IMG/VR virus record: IMGVR_UViG_3300033571_006631
Coordinates: 1 to 36,591 of that record
Source: a virus
DNA: 36,591 nucleotides
Strand: one strand, 5' to 3'
The number at the start of each line of letters is the position of its first letter. The stretch's first letter is position 1. The notes beneath the pieces were generated by a model. The model was not told the origin of the DNA. It saw nothing but the letters and a program-made list of their open reading frames with translations, and did not search any database. Of this stretch, positions 3,454 through 35,216 are shown in pieces. A program made the position numbers and the translations under genes.

Positions 3454-3785
3454 ATGAAATAATTGTAAACGGTGAAACTTATATAAAAGCAACTGCTTCA
3501 ACCACTGAGTATTCGCTTATCAGAACGTATTCGGCTGGAGTGCATTTTGGCAAAGTTACAAAGCGCGATGGCAAAGAAGTTGAATTAGCAGATGCTAGGC
3601 GAATTTGGTATTGGGAGGGTGCTGCGTCATTGTCTCAAATGGCAGTGGATGGCGTTAGCAAACCTGATAAATGCAAATTTAGCGTAACAGTGCCGACAAT
3701 AGTATTGACGGAAGCGATTGAAATTATTTCGTGTACCGAAAAAGCGACTAATTGCATTTTAAAGGTGCCAGAATGGAAAGTGTAA
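3450..3785 (+). CDS. DUF6948-like phage protein, 111 aa
   Basis: The ATG has AGAGGAGAAAAT upstream and overlaps the previous stop. Diagnostic segments are YSLIRTYSAGVHFGKV, KRDGKEVELADARRIWYWEG, AASLSQMAVDGVSKP and the C-terminal EAIEIISCTEKA with a final PEWKV. This pattern recurs in uncharacterised phage proteins that I associate with DUF6948. The protein is soluble, with no signal or membrane span. Its 3' end carries the ribosome-binding site and start of the low-complexity gene. Molecular function is not known. Confidence 0.7.
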   Translation: MNEIIVNGETYIKATASTTEYSLIRTYSAGVHFGKVTKRDGKEVELADARRIWYWEGAASLSQMAVDGVSKPDKCKFSVTVPTIVLTEAIEIISCTEKATNCILKVPEWKV

Positions 3786-4012
3786 ACAACGGCAGCGGCA
3801 GCGGCAACGGCAGCGGCTACGGCGTCGGCAGCAGCAGCGGCAACGGCTGCGGCTACGGCAGCGGCTACGGCAGCGGCAGCTACGGCGGCGACGACGGCAG
3901 CGGCTACGGCCGCGGCTACGGCGACGGCAGCGGCGACGACGGCAGCGGCTACGGCTACGGCCGCGGCGACGGCAGCGGCGACGGCGGTAGCGGCAGCAGC
4001 GGCTACGGATGA
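3773..4012 (+). CDS. Gly/Ser/Tyr/Asp low-complexity protein, 79 aa
   Basis: The ATG at 3773 has AAAGGTG five bases upstream and lies inside the end of the DUF6948-like gene. After MESVNN the protein consists only of Gly, Ser, Tyr, Asp, Asn, Arg, Cys and one Val, in a GSG/GYG/GDG pattern. Nearly every codon ends in C (GGC, AGC, TAC, GAC, AAC), giving a C/G-rich stretch unlike its A/T-rich neighbours. The frame is intact, ends in ATGA with the next ORF, and such arrays expand by slippage. The composition suggests a disordered, possibly phase-separating or linker-like protein; no function is known. Confidence 0.65.
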   Translation: MESVNNGSGSGNGSGYGVGSSSGNGCGYGSGYGSGSYGGDDGSGYGRGYGDGSGDDGSGYGYGRGDGSGDGGSGSSGYG

Positions 4013-4396: not shown

Positions 4397-5039
4397 AACA
4401 CCTGAAGAGATGGCGGAGAAATGGCTAAAGACATTTCCAGAGGGCGGGGACTGTTGCGAAATAGCCTTCCTAGCTGGCTATAAAGCAGCACAGGAACATG
4501 CGCACGCAGCGCTAGAGGAGGCTGAGGCTAGGCACGAGGCTTATGTGCTAGCAGCAGAGGAAAACTTCAAACGATTGGAGGCTAAATTGAATCAAGTTGT
4601 TGATGGCAACAAGATGATGAACGAGTTCGATGCGATGCTTGAGGAAAAAGAATTGGTTAATATAAAGCTAAGAGATGCCTTCTATCGCTCGTTGAACTTT
4701 TTAATATGCAACGAGTCCGTACCAGTGTTTCGTTTGAATGATATTTTATTTTACGTTGGACACTTAGAGGATGTGCTAATGGCTCGCAACTCTTCGGAAA
4801 AACCGGAAGGTTCCAACTCTTCGAAGAATTCGAACGGTTGGATTAGCGTAAGGGAGCGGCTGCCGGAGATTGGGGAGTGGGTGTTAATTAACGGCCCAGA
4901 AGTTTGCCAACGAATTGAACCACCGTCAGCTTCTTGGAAGGCAGAATACGCATGGAACACTGACCATGAAAGTTTTTATTATCCTGAAGACATCACCCAC
5001 TGGATGCCGCTACCTGACATGCCGAAGGAGGAAGAGTGA
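4386..5039 (+). CDS. KTPEEMA / coiled-coil / DUF551 protein, 217 aa
   Basis: The GTG at 4386 is chosen because GGAGG (4376-4380) lies five bases upstream; an upstream frame extension to 4356 has none. Three parts are visible: the N-terminal KTPEEMA module with CEIAFLAGYKAAQE (1-40), a helical, probably coiled-coil middle rich in Glu/Ala (40-100), and a C-terminal DUF551 domain (about 160-215) with GWISVRERLPEIGEWVLING and ITHWMPLPDMP. DUF551 occurs widely in phage early regions without known function. A Ser/Asn-rich linker joins the last two parts. The stop overlaps the next GTG start. Confidence 0.75.
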   Translation: MSIKTPEEMAEKWLKTFPEGGDCCEIAFLAGYKAAQEHAHAALEEAEARHEAYVLAAEENFKRLEAKLNQVVDGNKMMNEFDAMLEEKELVNIKLRDAFYRSLNFLICNESVPVFRLNDILFYVGHLEDVLMARNSSEKPEGSNSSKNSNGWISVRERLPEIGEWVLINGPEVCQRIEPPSASWKAEYAWNTDHESFYYPEDITHWMPLPDMPKEEE

Positions 5040-5641
5040 ACGCAGATATACCGCCTCTCAAAGTTTGGATAGAAAGTAAGAACTTAAACGGTAAAGAAGG
5101 TTTTGAGCATGGTTACGCATTTGCAATACAAAGTTATAAAGGACGAGCATTACAGTTTCACGTCCTGCTAGAGTCAGGCGCTCACTTTCGTCACGTCCCT
5201 TTGCATTGGCTCTGGCATGATGATATTAACGGTGATTGCTCTAAGTATTCCCTAGAGTCCCTTCAGTTATGGGATTGTTTTAGTTACCGCCCAATAGTGA
5301 CTACTTTTGATATGCTTAAAGGGTATCAATGCGATGCAATTCTTAAAGATAAAACTAAAATCTCAGGTACTTATTGGTGCACGATTGATTGGCTGCCTGA
5401 TTCTGATAGTGAGTCTGGATTCTTGCTACATCCCGACCAAAATAAATGCGCCCATTTACTTATGTTGGATAACGGGCAAATCGGATGTTTGCCTACCAAC
5501 AGAGTCATTTTCAAAGACGCCTTCTTTATCGGAGATGTTCCAGATGCTACCTCCCATGGATATAAAACCGTGGGGACAGTCTTCAAAGCAGAATCCTGCA
5601 AAAGATGGTCAGTAGCAAAAACAGAGGAGACTTTTTACTAA
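5036..5641 (+). CDS. Conserved-looking phage protein of unknown function, 201 aa
   Basis: The GTG start overlaps the previous stop (GTGA), with GGAGGAAGA directly upstream. The protein is soluble and mixed alpha/beta. Recognisable blocks are HVLLESGAHFRHVPLHWLWH, LWDCFSYRPIVTTFDMLKG, then GTYWCTIDWLP and the later DQNKCAHLLMLDNGQIGCLP with NRVIFKD. I have the impression of a recurrent phage protein with this block order but cannot name a function. The stop at 5639-5641 abuts the resolvase start. No metal or nucleotide site is obvious. Confidence 0.7.
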   Translation: MNADIPPLKVWIESKNLNGKEGFEHGYAFAIQSYKGRALQFHVLLESGAHFRHVPLHWLWHDDINGDCSKYSLESLQLWDCFSYRPIVTTFDMLKGYQCDAILKDKTKISGTYWCTIDWLPDSDSESGFLLHPDQNKCAHLLMLDNGQIGCLPTNRVIFKDAFFIGDVPDATSHGYKTVGTVFKAESCKRWSVAKTEETFY

Positions 5642-5994
5642 TGGTAAATTCAAGAGCAAAAGGCGCTAGAGCAGAACGCGAATTAGCCAACAAGCTAAAG
5701 GAGCACGGTTTAACCGCACGTCGAGGGCAACAATTTTGTGGCGCGAATGGTGACTCTGATGTAATTTGTAAAGAGTTAGATTCGTATCACATCGAATGTA
5801 AAATGGTTGAGGCTTTAAACATTCATAAAGCCATGGACCAAGCGATTAACGATTGTCAAGACAAAACTCCAATATGTATTCACAGAAAAAACAAGAAGCC
5901 GTGGCTAGTGACGATGTACCTAGAGGATTGGATACAATTAGCCGCCCCAAACCATTCACCGATATTGAACCCGAAGAAGGACCAAACTTCTTAA
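5641..5994 (+). CDS. PDDEXK-type Holliday-junction resolvase-like nuclease
   Basis: The product has 117 residues from ATG 5641, next to the previous stop, with GAGGAG slightly farther upstream. The sequence shows a nuclease core: KGARAERELANKLKEHG, the strand GDSDVICKE supplying the aspartate, and IECKMVEALN giving the E-x-K pair, followed by AMDQAINDCQ and KKPWLVTM. This is the layout of small phage PDDEXK resolvases that cut branched DNA before packaging. It fits with the annealing protein in the same block. An in-frame start at 5605 is possible but less likely. Confidence 0.78.
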   Translation: MVNSRAKGARAERELANKLKEHGLTARRGQQFCGANGDSDVICKELDSYHIECKMVEALNIHKAMDQAINDCQDKTPICIHRKNKKPWLVTMYLEDWIQLAAPNHSPILNPKKDQTS

Positions 5995-26115: not shown

Positions 26116-28692
26116 TTAACTCTCCGTCTCGTTTTCTTCGTCTAAATCATCTAATTCAATACTCGGATTACCTAACTCATCCGTTGTAATTTTCCCACGT
26201 CGCTTAGCTCTTTTTGGCATTATGTTGTTAATTACAATAGGATTTGCTTTGCTTTCTTCTTTTGGAGTTGTAGTCAGCGTTTGCATGGCGATTCTAATGC
26301 GCTCTAATTCGTTTTCAGAATTAAGACGTCTTTCTTCCATTAACTTTTCTGATTCGCTCATGCGAATACGCATTTGCTCTAATTCTAGTTTTTGAATTTC
26401 AAGAATTTGAGACATACGATTTGTTTCTTGAGCAATAGCAGCTTTGTTTGCTTCGCCTTGAGCTGTAGATTGAATTTTCATCATATCTACTTGCACTGAA
26501 TTAGATTTAATCTGCAATTCTTGTTGCGCTAGTCCAAGCTCTTGCTGTTTAAGATATTCTTCAAATTGTTGCTTTTGAATTGCTAATTGCGAGTCAAGTT
26601 GGTCGCGTTGCATTTTTAACTGCTGTTCTTGGTATGCAAGTTGGTTTTTTGTAGACTTATCTTGCATTTCCATTTGAGCAGCTTGCAACCTAGCTTGTGA
26701 TTCTACTTGTGCTATTTGCAGCCGACCTTGTACTTCAAGAGTCGTTGGATCCGGCGGCGGCGGTTGTTTAGCCGCTTCTTCCTTCGCCTTAGCAATATCG
26801 CCAATTTGCTGCATAGCTTTTGTAAAAATTCCATCTAACTCTTTGCCTCCCTTCATGCGTTTAATCATGTTTTGAAACAAAGACATGCTAAAATCTAACA
26901 ATGGCGGGTATTGCTCTACTAACCCTCGCATTTGATCAAAAAATGCTCCGGCACGTTCTATTAACATTGCGCCATCTTGCTGTTGCTGTTGCTGATCAAT
27001 AGCAATCATGCTGTCAGATGCGATTTGTATGCGATAGCTACGCTTTTTATTATCTCGCAAAATTTGAATAATTTGCTGCTTCATTTCATCAATTTTTTGC
27101 AGCATGTTTGGTTCTGGCATTGGAGGTGGAGCCATTGGCGCACCTGACTCATCTGGTGATACACCTTCTGGTCCTGGAGCTGGAGGAGGCGGAGGAGGAG
27201 CAATATAAATAGTTGGCTCTATCAAAACATCTGCATCGCCTACTTCTAAAATAGTTTGCTCGTCAAATTGCTCTGCAATAATTGTGCCAAGATTGCTAAT
27301 AGCATCTGAAACAAACTTGCTAAACATGTTTTGACGCACTACTAATCCTAAAGAGGACCATTGATTTTCAAGTCTGTTAGCTGTGGCTGATTTGTATTGT
27401 TCGCTAGTTCCACGAAGCAAATCCGAAACTTTTAATGTTTCGTACAGTTGTTGTAAGCCATTAGTTCGAGCGCCTTGAAGCACATTTAAAGCGTTTACAA
27501 ATGGTTCTACGGGATAAAACTCAACGCCAGCTTGCAACCCGCCACGACCTTTGTAACTTGGCCAGTTAGTAATAGGAGAGCCTTTCAAGTCGCCGCTAAA
27601 CAACTGCTCAACGTTTGGACCCATTGCAGCGTCATAAAGAAAGTTTGTGCGAATAGCTTGAGTAACAGCATGAATACGAGTTGTAAGTCGCTCTACTTCT
27701 AGTATTTGATCTCGAACATGCGTGTAATCTGAAACAGGAATTACTGAATCGGGGTCATTGGATTGTCTTATAACAGAGCAAGGATAAAATTTTTCAAATT
27801 TTGTTGGCGGTTCTGAAGATTCAATAATAGGGTTATCGCCGTTTTTTTGCAGCCAATAAACCTTGCCGGTGGCTTCGCACCAAATCTCGTGTAACTCCGC
27901 TTTACCTTCGTATTTATCGTCTTTTCGTGCTATGTCTTTTTTGCTTACCTCAGGGAATGAATCATAACTTAAATCATCAGCAACTTCTCGGCCAAACAAA
28001 GCTTCTGCTTGCATTCGATCAAGGTAAGCTCGACGCGCTTGCCATTCAATTTCATCTTCTGTGCGAGCATCTGAGCAATCGTAATCGTTGTATTGAACAA
28101 TATCCAGCAATGCTTTTTCACTGGTTTTTTGCTCTATTTCTACGGATGCAATAAAAATGTTTCCTTCTCCAGGCGTCAAAATGTTGACGTCTCCAGTGTA
28201 AGGCTTGCCTGTTCCGTCAATAAATTGACCGCTAGGATCTTTAATAACAGCAATTTCTTGCAATACTTTTTCAAACTTGGCAGCGTACCTTGCCCAAAGC
28301 ACACTTTGACCCGTGAGCAAAAATTGTAGTGCTGCGTTATATCCTATTTTATCAAAGTCAAAATGCAGATCCATTGCATATTGAGTGTTACGCTCAAGAA
28401 TTACACTACCAAGTTCGTATGGAATGCCACCTGACCGTTTCCGCAGATTTACTTCTGCTTTTGGCGTAGAAGAGTAGTAGGCAGGAAGCAAAGTATTAAC
28501 ACAATACCACCAAACATTAAGTCGTCTCTCAGCATCATTTAGAATGCCTACTTGTTTTTGTGCATTATAAACTCTAATTGATTCTTCTGCTTGTTCTACG
28601 AATCTTTTGCGATGTTCTTGAGATTGAGTAATTTGAGCTTTCCACCAACGAGGAGAATACTTTTGAATTAACGGCTTTATTTTTACGCTCAT
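26116..28692 (-). CDS. Portal protein, 858 aa
   Basis: The start overlaps the terminase stop (ATGA) with AAGGAT upstream. The first 480 residues show portal-like blocks: an N-terminal helical clamp (SPRWWKAQITQSQEHRKRFV), AERRLNVWWYCVNTLLPAYY, QFLLTGQSVLWARYAAKF, YNDYDCSDARTEDEIEWQAR and YKSATANRLENQWSSLGLVV. A Pro-rich linker (APPPPPPAPGPEG, about 500) is followed by a long Gln/Glu-rich coiled coil (640-810), like the barrel helices of P22-type portals. The dodecameric ring is the DNA channel and docks the terminase. Confidence 0.82.
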   Translation of the reverse strand: MSVKIKPLIQKYSPRWWKAQITQSQEHRKRFVEQAEESIRVYNAQKQVGILNDAERRLNVWWYCVNTLLPAYYSSTPKAEVNLRKRSGGIPYELGSVILERNTQYAMDLHFDFDKIGYNAALQFLLTGQSVLWARYAAKFEKVLQEIAVIKDPSGQFIDGTGKPYTGDVNILTPGEGNIFIASVEIEQKTSEKALLDIVQYNDYDCSDARTEDEIEWQARRAYLDRMQAEALFGREVADDLSYDSFPEVSKKDIARKDDKYEGKAELHEIWCEATGKVYWLQKNGDNPIIESSEPPTKFEKFYPCSVIRQSNDPDSVIPVSDYTHVRDQILEVERLTTRIHAVTQAIRTNFLYDAAMGPNVEQLFSGDLKGSPITNWPSYKGRGGLQAGVEFYPVEPFVNALNVLQGARTNGLQQLYETLKVSDLLRGTSEQYKSATANRLENQWSSLGLVVRQNMFSKFVSDAISNLGTIIAEQFDEQTILEVGDADVLIEPTIYIAPPPPPPAPGPEGVSPDESGAPMAPPPMPEPNMLQKIDEMKQQIIQILRDNKKRSYRIQIASDSMIAIDQQQQQQDGAMLIERAGAFFDQMRGLVEQYPPLLDFSMSLFQNMIKRMKGGKELDGIFTKAMQQIGDIAKAKEEAAKQPPPPDPTTLEVQGRLQIAQVESQARLQAAQMEMQDKSTKNQLAYQEQQLKMQRDQLDSQLAIQKQQFEEYLKQQELGLAQQELQIKSNSVQVDMMKIQSTAQGEANKAAIAQETNRMSQILEIQKLELEQMRIRMSESEKLMEERRLNSENELERIRIAMQTLTTTPKEESKANPIVINNIMPKRAKRRGKITTDELGNPSIELDDLDEENETES

Positions 28693-30971
28693 ATCCTTGC
28701 TCGTTTTGATTGCGAACGAATTTGATTTATATATGCTTGCAGTTTAATTCGACCCTTATTAAATACTGCTGCTGGTTGTTCCCACTTTGCATCAATCAAA
28801 CGCCCTTTGCAGAGGTATCTTAATGCGTCACAGTTATGAGACACAACCCTATTAGCCAATACAAAGGTACTGGTAGCTGGCACACTTAGGCAATACACAT
28901 CTTGCGGGGCTTCGGTATAAGCGATGGATTTAATCGCCTTCGTCGTGCGCTCATTTTGCAATTCCGATGGCAATACTTTGATTTGTGTTTCATATTGAGT
29001 TTGGTTTGATATTTCTTGCTGCAAAATTGACACGTCATTTGAATATAAGGCATATCCTGCGCCACTTTCTTTGCATGGATAGAGTGCCATTTTCGACCCT
29101 CCCCAGATTTGTGCCATTGTATTGCTGCGGGAACTGCATTCAACACTATATTTTGCGCCGCTGCTTGTCGTCGTTCTGGTGTCATATGATTGCTCAAATG
29201 AACCTTTGCTTCCAGCAATTCTAAATTGCTTATTTGATTGTTTGCTTTGTTCCCATCCTTGTGATGGATGTGCATTCCTTTTGGAATTGCGCCATTGAAG
29301 TATTCCCAAACTTTTCTGTGCAATCGTCTTGAGCCACGAACGCCCTTTTGTTGCGATGAAAAGTAATTTCCGCAACGGTAATACTTTATGTTGTTGAATT
29401 CTTGAACGGTCTCTGAAATAACCTTTACCATAGGTAACGCAACGTATCAGATCGTCGGAGGTTAAGCAATTAGCTTCTTTAAACGTGCCATCAGCAAGCA
29501 TGAATTTATGATCTGGAGTGCATGTTATTTCACTATTATCTTCCAAAATAATTTTCATGACCTCAGCATTTTTGCGGGTAAGAAAGCCGCAAGCCTCATG
29601 ATAATACCCATCATGTGCAAGTACATGAATGCTAAAATCGCCGCATAAATCTTTAATTGGAAGTGGACCAGAATCGGTTAAAATAAGAGTATCGCCGGTA
29701 AGACAGGCATGATCATTGCCAGTAGAATCTGCATCCTCTGGCCGTCGCTTATCTATGGATAAGGATGGTAAAGTTTCTAACAAATATGGGCAAGTAGCAA
29801 AAATGTATAGCAAAGGCGGATTAGCGACTAGCCGTTGTCGAATCTGCGACCATCCTGAAATGCGATCATTATCCGCTGCGCGAAAGCTAGGAAATTTATA
29901 CTTCGCAAACACGGTTGTGAATTGATCAGCAATACTTGGTCCGCCTTCGTGATTAAAAATACTAGGATCGGCAAATGCTAGTGGATTTTCTCCGACGGAT
30001 ACAGATCCGATTCTATTAGCCTGATCAATGTTATCAACTCCTTTTCCCCACATTTCTCTGTAGATAATAATTGCTCCTTGTGGATACGGTACTTCATTGC
30101 CCGAATCGTCTCGGCCTGATGAAACAGCACCCCAAACAGCAGCAAATGGACTCCGATAACCCCAGTCATACCCCATATACCTGTGCCAATGTTTAGGCAT
30201 GTTAAAAGGACTAATAATGTGTTTAGAGCTAAACTCAGGAAAGTAACTGCCTTCATGGATTTCAAAATCTCCTTCTAGCCATGCTCTGACAAGCTCAGGA
30301 GAGCCTACCATGTGCAATCGATTAATATATTCAGGGTCTCTTGCTAATAGAATTTGATTATCATGTACGCGACTAGGAATATAAATATAATCAAAACTTG
30401 CCCCATTCGGTAACATTTTTTTAAGCAGCTTCATTCCTTTAGGAGCTGGCTTAATAAATAATTCTTTTAGCCAACTATGCCCAATACCACCAGGGTTAAA
30501 CGTAAGGATAACCTGACCGCCACCCTTGCCTCGTAGCGCTCCAAATAACTTCCAGATACAGCTTGGGTCAGCATAATTACCCGCCTCCTCGACAGCCGCA
30601 TGGCTTAACGACTGGCCTTGAAATTTTTCAGCATCAGCATCATTGGCTAAGGGTCTAAAACGTAGGCGACCACCACCTAAGAAGGTAAACTGCTTTTTCT
30701 GATCCTGCCAGTGCGCTTTAAGGGGTAGGTAAATTTGCTTAGCACGCTCAATAAGGTCATCAGCTTGAGGAAGTTCTTTACGAAAAAAAACTGCATTAAA
30801 ATCTTTGCCCCATTGTTCTTGCGCTATTGCAAACTTGCCAAGTACCCCGTCGGTCTTACCTCCACCTCGTGCACCACCATAACCAACTAGTGTAATGGGG
30901 CAGTTTACCAGGGCCTCCTGCGGACCCTGTTGAGGCCGCCATACGACATTTACATCAAGATTATTGGTCAT
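28689..30971 (-). CDS. terL: Terminase large subunit interrupted by an intein
   Basis: The ORF has 760 codons; removing the 291-residue intein leaves 469, a normal TerL length. The ATPase has Walker A in VGYGGARGGGKTDGV (about 27-41), Walker B in LSHAAVEEAGNY and the coupling motif VILTFNPGG. The RNase-H-like nuclease shows YMGYDWGYRSPFAAVWG, then PLAFADPS, and finally NDHA^CDALRYL, interrupted at the caret by the intein (residues 423-713). TerL cuts and pumps DNA into the procapsid. Its first bases overlap a zinc-ribbon ORF and its stop overlaps the portal start. Splicing must occur to restore the nuclease motif. Confidence 0.9.
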   Translation of the reverse strand: MTNNLDVNVVWRPQQGPQEALVNCPITLVGYGGARGGGKTDGVLGKFAIAQEQWGKDFNAVFFRKELPQADDLIERAKQIYLPLKAHWQDQKKQFTFLGGGRLRFRPLANDADAEKFQGQSLSHAAVEEAGNYADPSCIWKLFGALRGKGGGQVILTFNPGGIGHSWLKELFIKPAPKGMKLLKKMLPNGASFDYIYIPSRVHDNQILLARDPEYINRLHMVGSPELVRAWLEGDFEIHEGSYFPEFSSKHIISPFNMPKHWHRYMGYDWGYRSPFAAVWGAVSSGRDDSGNEVPYPQGAIIIYREMWGKGVDNIDQANRIGSVSVGENPLAFADPSIFNHEGGPSIADQFTTVFAKYKFPSFRAADNDRISGWSQIRQRLVANPPLLYIFATCPYLLETLPSLSIDKRRPEDADSTGNDHACLTGDTLILTDSGPLPIKDLCGDFSIHVLAHDGYYHEACGFLTRKNAEVMKIILEDNSEITCTPDHKFMLADGTFKEANCLTSDDLIRCVTYGKGYFRDRSRIQQHKVLPLRKLLFIATKGRSWLKTIAQKSLGILQWRNSKRNAHPSQGWEQSKQSNKQFRIAGSKGSFEQSYDTRTTTSSGAKYSVECSSRSNTMAQIWGGSKMALYPCKESGAGYALYSNDVSILQQEISNQTQYETQIKVLPSELQNERTTKAIKSIAYTEAPQDVYCLSVPATSTFVLANRVVSHNCDALRYLCKGRLIDAKWEQPAAVFNKGRIKLQAYINQIRSQSKRARI
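28833..29705 (-). mobile_element. Intein inserted in terL, 291 residues
   Basis: The splice-critical residues are all present: Cys1 in CLTGDTLILTDSGPLPIKDL, block B as EITCTPDHKFML (T-x-x-H), block F as DVYCLSVPATSTFVLANRVV, and the C-terminal SHN before +1 Cys. It therefore should splice itself out. The in-frame region between about residues 92 and 262 is Ser/Thr/Gln/Lys-rich and shows no LAGLIDADG or HNH motif. That same DNA encodes an HNH protein in the +1 frame. The insertion lies in the conserved D-H-x-x-D-A-L-R-Y nuclease motif, a typical choice for inteins. Confidence 0.88.
28886..29431 (-). CDS. HNH homing endonuclease nested in the intein, +1 frame, 181 aa
   Basis: The ORF is complete, on the same strand as terL and fully inside the intein codons (about 92-273). 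The N-terminal part (NNIKYYRCGNYFSSQ, RRLHRKVWEYFNGAIPKG) leads to a full HNH core, MHIHHKDGNKANNQISNLEL followed by LSNH. The C-terminus has a treble-clef-like zinc finger (CQFCSKK and CHRNCKMSARRRR). An in-frame TGA lies 18 bases before the ATG, so the start is fixed. No Shine-Dalgarno is visible upstream. Its last codons overlap intein block F. It probably cuts intein-free terL alleles and so drives homing; this is inferred. Confidence 0.8.
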   Translation of the reverse strand: MVKVISETVQEFNNIKYYRCGNYFSSQQKGVRGSRRLHRKVWEYFNGAIPKGMHIHHKDGNKANNQISNLELLEAKVHLSNHMTPERRQAAAQNIVLNAVPAAIQWHKSGEGRKWHSIHAKKVAQDMPYIQMTCQFCSKKYQTKLNMKHKSKYCHRNCKMSARRRRLNPSLIPKPRKMCIA

Positions 30972-32195: not shown

Positions 32196-32504
32196 CTATG
32201 CGATATCATTGAGTAACTTAAGGAAGTCATCACTACTCATGCCGCTTAACTCATGTAACATAGCTATCTCCAGCGGATAGTACATGACCTTCCACCTCTC
32301 ACGATACTGCCACGCCTTCTGTGTGATACCTACGAGTGCACCTGCTTCTGTCTGTGTTAGCTTTAGCCTACGTCTTAGCTCGTAGTAGATGTTGCCTTTG
32401 GGCTTGCCAATAGTATGCTTAAACCTAGCTCGTAGCTTCTGCGAGTAAATAGACTTTAGACGGTCTGCTTTACTTTCCACTGTATATCTTAATCCCTCAA
32501 GCAT
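32196..32504 (-). CDS. XRE/Cro-like HTH regulator, 102 aa
   Basis: The N-terminal 35 residues are basic. A helix-turn-helix follows: YYELRRRLKLTQTEAGALVG with ITQKAWQYRERWK, then a helical end (PLEIAMLHELSGMSSDDFLK). The pattern of 'L-LTQ-EAG-LVGIT---W--ER' is that of XRE-type phage repressors or Cro proteins. The gene faces away from the plus-strand early genes across a 183-bp control region that holds a palindromic site, so it probably governs the early/late decision. No integrase is found, so lysogeny is not demonstrated. Confidence 0.72.
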   Translation of the reverse strand: MLEGLRYTVESKADRLKSIYSQKLRARFKHTIGKPKGNIYYELRRRLKLTQTEAGALVGITQKAWQYRERWKVMYYPLEIAMLHELSGMSSDDFLKLLNDIA

Positions 32505-32615: not shown

Positions 32616-32646
32616 ACTGTACACAGTGAATCATATAGTGTATAGT
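32616..32646 (+). promoter_or_regulatory. Early promoter with overlapping palindromic operator
   Basis: ACTGTACACAGT (32616-32627) is an inverted repeat, ACTGT and ACAGT around AC. It overlaps a -35-like TGTACA (32618-32623), which is 17 bases from TATAGT (32641-32646). Related ACTGT half-sites lie at 32479 and 32521. The same unit recurs at 35147. A repressor, perhaps the adjacent XRE protein, could block the promoter by binding here. Confidence 0.6.
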
Positions 32647-32655
32647 TAGGTTGTG

Positions 32656-32673
32656 AGTTGGGAATAACCCCAC
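32656..32673 (+). promoter_or_regulatory. Leader hairpin before the first early ORF
   Basis: GTTGGG and CCCCAC pair with one mismatch around AATAA shortly after the predicted transcription start, ahead of GAGGATATATGA. The latter translation-start context is repeated before several early ORFs (32688, 32956, 33720). Confidence 0.35.
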
Positions 32674-32687
32674 GTTAGCGAGGATAT

Positions 32688-32879
32688 ATGAGACTTAAAC
32701 AGATTCAAAAACAATACGCTTTTATTGCCACGATCAACAAAAGCAATTCTAGTTATGGCAACTATGCTGTCAGGCTGAAAATTCCTACAAATCACATAGA
32801 GTTCTTTTTCAGATTATCCGACATGGTGCGCTTCCTTGATTCTCACGTGAGAGATTTACGTTCTGGTAATTGCCTATAA
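32688..32879 (+). CDS. Hypothetical early protein, 63 aa
   Basis: The ATG follows GCGAGGATAT, a start context shared with neighbouring early genes. The protein is basic, with a beta-like centre (YAFIATINKSNSSYGNYAVR) and a C-terminal helix (RLSDMVRFLDSHVRDLR). It is the first gene after the putative early promoter, a usual place for host-takeover or regulatory proteins. No family recognised. Confidence 0.65.
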   Translation: MRLKQIQKQYAFIATINKSNSSYGNYAVRLKIPTNHIEFFFRLSDMVRFLDSHVRDLRSGNCL

Positions 32880-32886
32880 CAAATAA

Positions 32887-32940
32887 TTAGTGTGATTACA
32901 GGCTATCCTACGGGGTAGCTGATAATCGCAATAGTGCGAG
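32887..32940 (+). ncRNA. Two-hairpin leader RNA element, copy 1
   Basis: The 54-nt element begins TTAGTGTGATTACAG. Hairpin 1 has an eight-pair stem (32901-32908 with 32913-32920, including G-U pairs) closed by the loop UACG. Hairpin 2 is TCGCA-ATAG-TGCGA at 32926-32939. It ends 15 bases before the next start. Copy 2 at 33653 has the same length, flanks and second hairpin. Its first stem differs by compensatory changes. It is probably a cis-acting structured RNA. Confidence 0.7.
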
Positions 32941-32955
32941 ATACAGTGAGGATAT

Positions 32956-33291
32956 ATGAGCACAACTATTACAATTACACACACAATTTTAGATGGCCAT
33001 TTGGGCGAAAATTGGCAGGATGTCACAGAGGTTGCCGATGTGTTTGCAGATTATATCCGCAATATTTGGGAGGAGGATTTAACGGAATTTTCTGAGCACG
33101 GGTATAATGTTCAGATTGACATATCGGTACAGTACAACACTAGCGGCTATGGCGGATCGACGTTGATCAGTATTGACGATGACGGAGCTGTATCTGAACG
33201 TGAAATTGAGAACTCACTAACGCCCATGACTATCATATGGGATCAATTTTGTGCATCTGAACAAGCTGCTGAATTGGCTAACATGCAATAA
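32956..33291 (+). CDS. Hypothetical acidic early protein, 111 aa
   Basis: GTGAGGATAT lies before the ATG, directly after leader copy 1. The protein is acidic: beta-like N-terminus (TTITITHTILDGHLGENW), helices (VFADYIRNIWEEDLTEFSEH), a strand pair (YNVQIDISVQYNTSGYGG) and a helical C-terminus (IWDQFCASEQAAELANM). The charge could suit DNA mimicry or regulator inhibition, but nothing specific supports this. No family recognised. Confidence 0.68.
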   Translation: MSTTITITHTILDGHLGENWQDVTEVADVFADYIRNIWEEDLTEFSEHGYNVQIDISVQYNTSGYGGSTLISIDDDGAVSEREIENSLTPMTIIWDQFCASEQAAELANMQ

Positions 33292-33302
33292 AGGATAATC
33301 CA

Positions 33303-33392
33303 ATGAAACTAACCATTTACGATCATATTTTATGCATTAGCGCGATATTGGCTAGTGCTATGACTACGGTTTTATATTTTGCGACGAAATAG
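33303..33392 (+). CDS. Single-span membrane peptide, 29 aa
   Basis: AAAGGATAATCC precedes the ATG. The peptide (MKLTIYDHILCISAILASAM and a short tail) is almost entirely one hydrophobic helix with a short C-terminal TK. It is similar in size to other tiny phage membrane peptides. The following gene begins four bases after its stop. Function unknown. Confidence 0.5.
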   Translation: MKLTIYDHILCISAILASAMTTVLYFATK

Positions 33393-33396
33393 GTAT

Positions 33397-33651
33397 ATGA
33401 GCACACGAATTCAACAAAATATCGAATTGTATAGAAATATGGGCGGTAAATTAGTCATAGCAGTGTGGGTTACTAATAGACGGGTACGAGACACTGTAGC
33501 TAGTGACGGCACCGCATATACAATGGATTACGGCATTGAATCAGTTACTGATAAAATTGTGTTTAGCAAGCCTGTAAGAGCGAATAGTCCTATTGTAACG
33601 GATGCAATCGACATGCTTAAAAGTCAGTATCCGGATGCCGTAGTAAACTAG
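33397..33651 (+). CDS. Hypothetical early protein, 84 aa
   Basis: ATG 33397 is preferred to an upstream TTG because TAGGTAT precedes it and the previous stop lies next to it. The protein is basic at first (STRIQQNIELYRNMGGKLVI), then beta-like (YTMDYGIESVTDKIVF), and ends with a helix (IVTDAIDMLKSQYPDAV). No motif or family is recognised. Leader copy 2 begins two bases after its stop. Confidence 0.6.
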   Translation: MSTRIQQNIELYRNMGGKLVIAVWVTNRRVRDTVASDGTAYTMDYGIESVTDKIVFSKPVRANSPIVTDAIDMLKSQYPDAVVN

Positions 33652-33652
33652 C

Positions 33653-33706
33653 TTAGTGTGATTACAGTGGGCTCTCCGGAGTCCACGATAATCGCAATAG
33701 TGCGAG
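33653..33706 (+). ncRNA. Two-hairpin leader RNA element, copy 2
   Basis: It starts with the same TTAGTGTGATTACAG as copy 1. Hairpin 1 pairs GTGGGCTC (33667-33674) with GAGTCCAC (33679-33686) around UCCG. Hairpin 2 and its flank (GATAATCGCAATAGTGCGAG, 33687-33706) are identical to copy 1. Six of the eight stem positions differ from copy 1 yet pairing is kept, and both loops belong to the UNCG type. This covariation supports a selected RNA structure. Confidence 0.7.
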
Positions 33707-33719
33707 TAACGGAGGATAT

Positions 33720-33845
33720 ATGAACATCTTAGGCATACAACTAAACAATCTTTACGACTGTATTACCCTCGGCTTGTTTATCGGCGGGGTAGCATCCTTG
33801 GTTTATCATAGCCTTGAGCGAGTAACTGAACATTTTAGCAATTAG
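33720..33845 (+). CDS. Small membrane protein, 41 aa
   Basis: GGAGGATAT precedes the ATG, 13 bases after leader copy 2. The protein begins MNILGIQLNNLYDC and contains one hydrophobic segment (ITLGLFIGGVASLVYH), then a short polar end (LERVTEHFSN). It would sit in the inner membrane as a single span. Its leader and start context are shared with the 32956 gene. Function unknown. Confidence 0.55.
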   Translation: MNILGIQLNNLYDCITLGLFIGGVASLVYHSLERVTEHFSN

Positions 33846-34378: not shown

Positions 34379-35021
34379 GGCTAGCCTCGGCAAACTGTTT
34401 TAGGATCTGTAATCCGACATGGGTATCGGGATCGCAAAGTTTTTTTTGCAGTGGATTGCCAAATGCTGCAACCTGCGCCATTAGGTCGGTTTTGGTGTGA
34501 TCGGGTAGACTAGCCCACCAGTCGCGGTTGGCTTGCCCAGCTTTTTTTTCCTGTTCCATGGTTTCTTCTCCTAGTTGTTTATTTAAATTTAATGCTTGAT
34601 CCTTTGGTAATTTTTTTTTGGTATCTTTTAATGGTAATACTTTTAATGGTAGGGGGCCAATTTGGCACCGATCACTAGTGCCAATTTGGCACCGGTCAGT
34701 GGACAATTTGGCACTATTCGCGACATTTTTGGCACCATTCATTGGTGCCAATTTGGCACCGGTTGTGTTAAGATATCGACCTCTTCCTTTGGTCGTTTCT
34801 CTTAGCATGTTAAGAGCAATAAGGCGTTTAATAAATCGTTTGGTGCTACGCTCTGAAAGTCTTAGTTCTGAGGCTATGTGCGGAATACTAGCAAAACAGG
34901 GGCGCTTGTTTCTTTCAAAGCGCTGCACATATTGGTAAACGAGAGCTTCCAGGTGAGATAATCCCTGATCAACTAGGCGAAAATCTACTATACCTAGGCG
35001 GTGTTTTTTGCTATCTTGCAT
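34365..35021 (-). CDS. Winged-helix replication initiator-like protein, 218 aa
   Basis: The N-terminal 85 residues form a winged helix as in phage O-type or RepA-like initiators: LSHLEALVYQYVQRFERNKR, FASIPHIASELRLSERSTKR and FIKRLIALNMLRETTKGRGR. The middle (87-122) is encoded by the iteron repeats and so contains repeated peptides (GAKLAP, DRCQIG). The C-terminal third is helical (WWASLPDHTKTDLMAQVAAF) and could recruit host replication proteins. Iterons within the gene parallel the lambda O/ori arrangement. No phage helicase or polymerase is present, so host replication enzymes would be needed. Confidence 0.75.
   Translation of the reverse strand: MQDSKKHRLGIVDFRLVDQGLSHLEALVYQYVQRFERNKRPCFASIPHIASELRLSERSTKRFIKRLIALNMLRETTKGRGRYLNTTGAKLAPMNGAKNVANSAKLSTDRCQIGTSDRCQIGPLPLKVLPLKDTKKKLPKDQALNLNKQLGEETMEQEKKAGQANRDWWASLPDHTKTDLMAQVAAFGNPLQKKLCDPDTHVGLQILKQFAEASREVS
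34625..34762. other. Putative replication origin: iterons plus A/T-rich flank
   Basis: The repeated core CCAATTTGGCAC occurs at 34655-34670, 34678-34696 and 34744-34762, with variants at 34701-34716 (ACAATTTGGCAC) and about 34724-34737 (TTTTTGGCACC). The full form GGTGCCAATTTGGCACC is an inverted repeat. Next to it are two direct copies of CTTTTAATGGTA (34625-34636, 34640-34651) and an A/T-rich stretch from about 34570. Placement within the initiator gene resembles lambda ori. Origin function is inferred. Confidence 0.75.
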
Positions 35022-35076: not shown

Positions 35077-35146
35077 ATTGTTTCAGATAGTTATACCCCT
35101 CTAAAACTATTCTCTCAAGTTTTTTTTAAATAATCCGAAACTATTA

Positions 35147-35176
35147 CTGTACACAGAGAATCATATCTGGTATGGT
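35147..35176 (+). promoter_or_regulatory. Second early promoter with operator-like CTGTACACAG
   Basis: CTGTACACAG (35147-35156) covers a -35-like TGTACA (35148-35153), 17 bases from TATGGT (35171-35176). The segment TACTGTACACAG[T/A]GAATCATAT is shared with the 32616 promoter, including the spacing. Transcription would begin near 35183, downstream of the ATG at 35172, so the ATG at 35217 is used. Confidence 0.6.
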
Positions 35177-35216
35177 TCAAGCATGGGCAATCAAGCCCGA
35201 TAGGAAAAGGAAATAT

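Follow-up and report, generated by a model that had tools for sequence, protein, structure and literature searches.

A family of hairpin RNAs between early phage genes, with a possible role in mRNA processing

The window analysed here is a virus record of 36,591 bases. An 87-nt direct repeat at both ends identifies it as a complete circular-mapping phage genome, and its large terminase and portal protein match phage families. A probable early promoter is inferred to drive a rightward operon that holds two copies of a structured element (Table 1). Copy 1 follows the ORF 32688-32879 stop codon and precedes the ribosome-binding site (RBS) of ORF 32956-33291; copy 2 likewise occupies the junction of the ORF 33397-33651 stop codon with the RBS of an ORF that starts at 33720. 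An earlier sequence-only reading of the window had placed two 54-nt copies at 32887-32940 and 33653-33706, and the sequence features that it listed are present. Both copies have identical flanks (GTGTGATTACAG and GATAATCGCAATAGTGCGAG) and are followed on the 3´ side by GAGGATATATGA. In the upper stem, the arms GGCTATCC and GTGGGCTC are unlike at 6/8 positions with pairing retained, and the tetraloops are UACG in copy 1 and UCCG in copy 2. When ≤3 mismatches are allowed, GATAATCGCAATAGTGCGAG has 2 matches compared with 0 expected. The conserved unit extends 3 nt farther to the 5´ side than these 54 nt and includes a basal CUA/UAG pairing.

Table 1. Coordinates of the element copies and associated features in the window.
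Feature	Position	Strand	Evidence
Element copy 1, whole conserved unit	32884-32940	+	covariance model R1, 78.3 bits, E 1.1e-18; fold z -4.8
Copy 1 strand a (UGUGAUUA), 5´ side of lower stem	32891-32898	+	minimum free energy fold; pair counts
Copy 1 internal loop and upper hairpin	32899-32922	+	fold, pair counts, descriptor hits
Copy 1 strand b (UAAUCGCA)	32923-32930	+	pairs with a (long hairpin), or its UCGCA part with a´ (short hairpin)
Copy 1 strand a´ (UGCGA), 3´ side of short hairpin	32935-32939	+	GCGA invariant, 21/21 aligned copies
Element copy 2	33650-33706	+	covariance model R1, 77.3 bits, E 2e-18; fold z -5.7
Copy 2 strand a	33657-33664	+	minimum free energy fold
Copy 2 CA/GA internal loop, upper stem GUGGGCUC/GAGUCCAC, UCCG loop	33665-33688	+	fold; pair counts
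Copy 2 strand b	33689-33696	+	fold; alternative pairing
Copy 2 strand a´	33701-33705	+	alignment of copies
Probable early promoter, palindrome ACTGTACACAGT	32616-32646	+	repeat, promoter-like site, same arrangement in relatives
Leader hairpin of the operon's first gene	32656-32673	+	~15 nt before ATG
Leader hairpin GGGCAAUCAAGCCC after second CTGTACACAG promoter	35185-35198	+	comparison

The minimum free energy structure of both copies is a single long hairpin. Strand a pairs with strand b to form the lower stem, above which a 2x2 CA/GA internal loop leads to an 8-bp upper stem that is usually closed by a UNCG loop. In copy 1, the internal loop comprises CA at 32899-32900 and GA at 32921-32922; the upper stem pairs 32901-32908 with 32913-32920, and the UACG loop occupies 32909-32912. 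The base of the helix is lengthened past a G·A mismatch by the short CUA/UAG extension. The folding energies are -23.1 kcal/mol for copy 1 and -24.6 kcal/mol for copy 2 (z -4.8 and -5.7), and 0/200 shuffles folded as well. The reverse strand of both copies folds much less well, and therefore the element is an RNA of the coding strand. The sequence-only reading had described two consecutive hairpins. Its second hairpin, UCGCA-AUAG-UGCGA, shares strand b with the lower stem and excludes that stem because both use the same strand. When the 5´ arm is blocked, the resulting two-hairpin state is ~7–10 kcal/mol worse than the long hairpin, and therefore the long hairpin should dominate the intact RNA. 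The second hairpin is retained as a conserved competing pairing, whereas the two-hairpin ground state gives way to one extended hairpin. The isolated 3´ fragment is computed to fold into the hairpin formed by strands b and a´. No U run was seen after either hairpin in the two copies, and the RBS is largely unpaired in both folds. An intrinsic terminator or attenuator was rejected on these two grounds and because the element is not among the terminator-like sites.

Pattern scans of viral contigs located the element in ~20 IMG/VR contigs. The first scan returned mostly chance matches, and its unrelated loci were reused as an outside control. A covariance model (R1) was built from 21 unique copies; it recovers both window copies, ~30 further close copies and additional diverged copies at low E-values. 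The covariance-model search that the sequence-only reading had proposed, in the expectation of further copies in related phages, thus returned many of them. Beyond the close copies, ~14 diverged lower-stem types were found. In the alignment, 97.5% of the pair cells are standard pairs, compared with 32–50% when the strands are slid, and changes on both sides of a pair number 39 against a shuffle mean of 11.8. The covariation is mostly in the upper stem, which is exchanged between genomes as a block. Upper stems are shared in 0/15 pairs of copies within one genome and in 34/580 pairs between genomes. UNCG closes 18/28 four-base loops, over 14 distinct stems. The lower stem also varies under pairing, with 2–6 standard pair types at each of positions 2–7, which are paired in 12–14 of 14 types. 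The most conserved part of the element is 5´-ACA...GAU-3´ around the internal loop. The loop is CA/GA in 32/51 descriptor hits, and the adjoining lower-stem pair is A-U in 14/14 types; several types keep the architecture with other internal loops (AC/TA, ATG/AC, TCC/TC). The R1 score depends on the strand (for example, 82.7 bits forward versus 26.1 bits reverse), and only the coding strand accommodates G-U pairs. The many copies and the compensatory changes bear out the view that this is a structured, conserved cis RNA.

No match to the element was found in Rfam (at gathering score or E<1), in GenBank phages or in cellular genomes. The nearest large terminase belongs to Pseudanabaena phage Pam5 (40%), in which an R1 search gave no hit, and the small-terminase-like protein has no match in GenBank phages. 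The element is a new phage RNA family, and its function is a prediction. In two relatives, L122 (1193-1249) and L123 (77-132), the upper hairpin is swapped whole (AGACACUC.. versus GGGCAUCC..) within the same flanks, and the downstream proteins are 97% identical despite the different upper hairpins. This suggests an exchange of hairpin tips between copies. A tie between upper-stem type and downstream gene was considered and rejected, since orthologues carry different stems.

Strand b can pair in two ways, and both folds (a:b and b:a´) are conserved. In close copies, GCGA of a´ is invariant (21/21 aligned) though it is unpaired in the long hairpin. Across lower-stem types of unrelated sequence, b is complementary to both a and a´ in 14/15 types; L187/L188 is the only type that lacks a´. 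In L098, a/b is GUGUUUA/UAAACAC and b/a´ is ACACU/AGUGU. The corresponding pairs are GCGAUUA/UAAUCGU and UCGUU/AACGA in L128, CGAUCAA/UUGAUCG and GAUCGG/CCGAUC in L197, and UAGUCUA/UAGACUG and CUGGC/GCUAG in L211. The same double complementarity occurs in L180, L183, L185, L184/L130/L045, L125 and L198/L207. Compared with shuffled tails, re-pairing of b with a´ gives a combined Fisher p of ~2e-9 over 15 lower-stem types, a statistic that uses mononucleotide shuffles, treats the types as independent and includes one type (L125) picked by eye from the fold list. The composite pattern, in which a stem, an internal loop and a second stem precede an RBS and ORF and the 3´ strand can re-pair, occurs at 45.5/Mb in these phages versus 2.2/Mb in the outside control of 108 unrelated viral loci. 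The b:a´ pairing is conserved yet uncompetitive in the intact RNA, which implies some event that would remove or mask strand a.

The copies are placed between co-directional ORFs, with a stop codon upstream and an RBS and ATG downstream. In 44/47 copies, the distance between strand a and the end of the upstream stop codon is -4 to +11 nt; several copies supply this stop themselves, through the CUAG of the element. The distance from the end of a´ to the next ATG is 14–18 nt (median 15). An operon contains 1–3 copies, at internal gene junctions and not directly after promoters. The downstream genes belong to many unrelated small-gene families, and therefore the element is not gene-specific; five window ORFs tested against PHROGs gave no match. 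ORF 33397-33651 is homologous to the L098 ORF after 5111 (- strand), with near-identical N-termini. The element lies upstream of the L098 homologue but is absent before the window ORF, which indicates that an individual gene can acquire or lose its element.

The first genes after CTGTACACAG-type promoters are without the element and have a simple leader hairpin (UGGGAAUAAUCCCA or GGCAAUUAAGCC types), the end of which lies 11–18 nt ahead of the ATG (median 16). In the window, the leader hairpin of the operon's first gene is no copy of the element, yet it occupies the same position relative to the ATG. Since leader hairpins and a´ lie at a like distance from the ATG, processed and primary messages would begin alike. 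The palindrome ACTGTACACAG(T) occurs at 32616-32627 and 35146-35157 of the window and precedes most early operons in many relatives. It is probably the operator of an HTH-like protein encoded divergently (32196-32504, - strand). A common arrangement comprises the operator, CATCATA, a -10-like box, a leader hairpin and an RBS.

These features are best accommodated by a modular mRNA-processing site between early genes of a polycistronic phage transcript, a reading to which we give a probability of about one half and in which the cleavage is what we infer. Among the three roles suggested by the sequence-only reading (antitermination, processing and protein binding), processing fits best. Pairing of a with b, together with the upper stem, provides a helix of ~22 positions with the 2x2 CA/GA loop, a fold shown by covariation. 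The host RNase III, or a similar double-strand nuclease, would cut on the 3´ side of the helix, at the internal loop or immediately below it. The upper hairpin, which is stable and often UNCG-capped, would then stay as the 3´ end of the upstream message. Strand b, freed from a, would pair with a´ through the conserved alternative. The 5´ end created by the cut would thereby carry a short hairpin, ~15 nt ahead of the downstream start codon and at the same spot as the leader hairpins of primary transcripts. The predicted outcome is a set of single-gene messages with a hairpin at each end and an open RBS. Cleavage at the internal loop would explain the caps at the 3´ and 5´ ends, the matching leader hairpins and the occurrence of copies in front of unrelated genes. 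E. coli RNase III needs no more than a 12-bp stem with a tetraloop to cut once (PMC8708148), and the stem of the element is long enough (8 + 8 bp, basal pairs and the 2x2 loop). The upstream message is stabilised when one cut leaves its 3´ end folded (PMC6993053). The fuller version, for which we put the chance somewhat short of even, is a handover RNA: strand b would pair upstream to build the nuclease site and, after cutting, downstream to build a protective 5´ hairpin. The element would then act as a movable insulator that yields single-gene messages hairpin-capped at both ends, with its pairing logic conserved and its sequence freely replaced.

Ten RNase III sites are counted in phage T7 (PMC9135205). 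The T7 early sites R0.3, R0.5, R1, R1.1 and R1.3 also lie between genes of an early polycistronic message, as hairpins interrupted by an internal loop, and they share with the element a stable upper stem and a closely following gene. By eye, some upper stems of the element are like those of R0.3 (GGGUAUC..GGUGCCC) and R1 (UUACAGGUCAUC..GGGUGGCC). Cleavage of R1.1 at nt 5887 protects the mRNAs (PMC8708148). In the T7 record, this nucleotide sits just 5´ of GAUUGACC; the cut thus falls just before GAU, and in the element GAU likewise comes after the upper stem. The 3´ product of R1.1 can refold, as proposed for the element, whereas the other T7 early sites checked do not. Strand a´ is conserved in nearly every element type, whereas most T7 early sites are without a handover hairpin. 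The internal loop of R1.1 is 4/5 asymmetric (PMC6121014), compared with the mostly symmetrical 2x2 CA/GA loop of the element; the 4/5 loop is specific to R1.1 and not common to all RNase III sites. Alignment of the element to the T7 sites gave best local scores within the shuffled-T7 range. The best E of model R2 on T7 was 0.52, not at the early sites; the top match of model R1 in the T7 early region is site R1, but with E 1.1. Homology to the T7 sites was dropped because the scores are within the shuffled range and R2 misses the sites. The analogy was kept: on this comparison, the element and the T7 sites resemble each other in architecture alone.

T4-type PeSL mobile regulatory cassettes comprise stem-loops at the boundaries of small accessory phage genes and are shared among genomes, and by definition such a cassette has an early promoter beside the stem-loop. 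The element likewise forms gene-boundary stem-loops of small accessory genes that are shared among genomes. Unlike PeSL cassettes, it is without an internal promoter-like site (no sigma-70-like site was found on the + strand within either window element) and has a dedicated alternative pairing. RiboJ-type synthetic ribozyme insulators (PMC6993053) would act similarly if the processing model is right, with an upstream cut after which the remaining hairpin exposes the RBS; no ribozyme core was recognised in the element, and no homology is claimed. The well-supported family is unusual in its three-strand logic, which is conserved: b is complementary to a and a´ independently of sequence. If the model holds, the element would be a new variant among the hairpins at which phages process mRNA. 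It would show how phages make each gene of a cassette region independently stable and translatable, and would offer a natural counterpart to engineered insulators. The model predicts the cut position, the refolded 5´ end and the behaviour of triple-compensatory mutants.

Masking of strand a could also arise from translation. In a translation-coupled switch without cleavage, a terminating ribosome would cover a and allow b:a´ to form, an untranslated upstream gene would leave the long hairpin, and the two states would set re-initiation, decay or nuclease access. The triple pairing of a, b and a´ fits this scheme too, and the stop codon at -4 to +11 nt from a (44/47 copies) would seat the terminating ribosome on a, although compact genomes would be expected to show such close packing anyway. 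The Shine-Dalgarno sequence and the start codon stay uncovered in both states, which leaves the switch with no clear output, and the leader hairpins at the same spot in primary messages are left unexplained. We consider this switch unlikely. A second alternative arises from a feature that counts against the processing-site model, namely that the internal loop is symmetrical and conserved, with CA/GA in most types. RNase III has no strong sequence consensus (PMC8708148), and conservation of the loop could thus be the mark of a protein that binds it specifically. Such a protein, from phage or host, would read the CA/GA loop and regulate the translation or stability of several early genes as an RNA-operator regulon. 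The conserved 5´-ACA...GAU-3´ region, CA/GA in 32/51 hits and the A-U pair in 14/14 types agree with this scheme. However, several types use other loops while keeping the architecture, a binding site alone needs no conserved b:a´ alternative, and no candidate protein was found. We regard such an operator as improbable.

The lead of the sequence-only reading, an RNA like HK022 put that acts on RNA polymerase as an antiterminator, fares much worse. HK022 putL and putR lie downstream of the early promoters PL and PR; put RNA binds the zinc-binding domain of RNAP beta´ and suppresses termination. Like the element, these are cis RNAs of early phage transcripts, of similar size, for which a two-hairpin drawing is possible. 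The put RNA measures ~70 nt and has a V shape made of two stems (PMC9378689). The element differs in its one-hairpin ground state and in its location at internal gene junctions, with 1–3 copies per operon and not right after promoters, and no excess of terminators was found downstream of the copies. In HK022, models R1 and R2 gave no strong hit; their best E is 0.027–0.076, at a 39.68-kb position distant from both gene O and the early control region, and put is unannotated in that record. We consider put-like antitermination very improbable. Equally remote is a reading in which the RNA fold is incidental and the unit is a DNA-level repeat, serving recombination, cruciform formation or replication, or a mobile cassette between genes. 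This would suit the sequence-similar units at many gene boundaries and the swap of upper hairpins with flanks and downstream gene unchanged (L122 versus L123) but not the strand-specific fold and score, the restriction of G-U pairs to the coding strand or the fixed place between stop codon and RBS.

Several other features of the window were observed. The large terminase ORF (28689-30971, - strand, 760 aa) carries an intein, as judged from a Pfam Intein_splicing match over residues 465-713, between terminase parts. Repeats of GGTGCCAATTTGGCACC at 34661-34763, inside a replication-initiation-like gene, look like origin iterons; the relatives L184, L212, L196 and L215 have different iterons (GATCCCATT.., TGTTCAAAATGAACA) among the descriptor hits. 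A long glycine-rich coding repeat of GGC NNC units lies at 3765-4007 (+ strand), and ORF 5036-5641 (+ strand) matches the PHROGs family "ferredoxin", which belongs to the category of host takeover/auxiliary genes.
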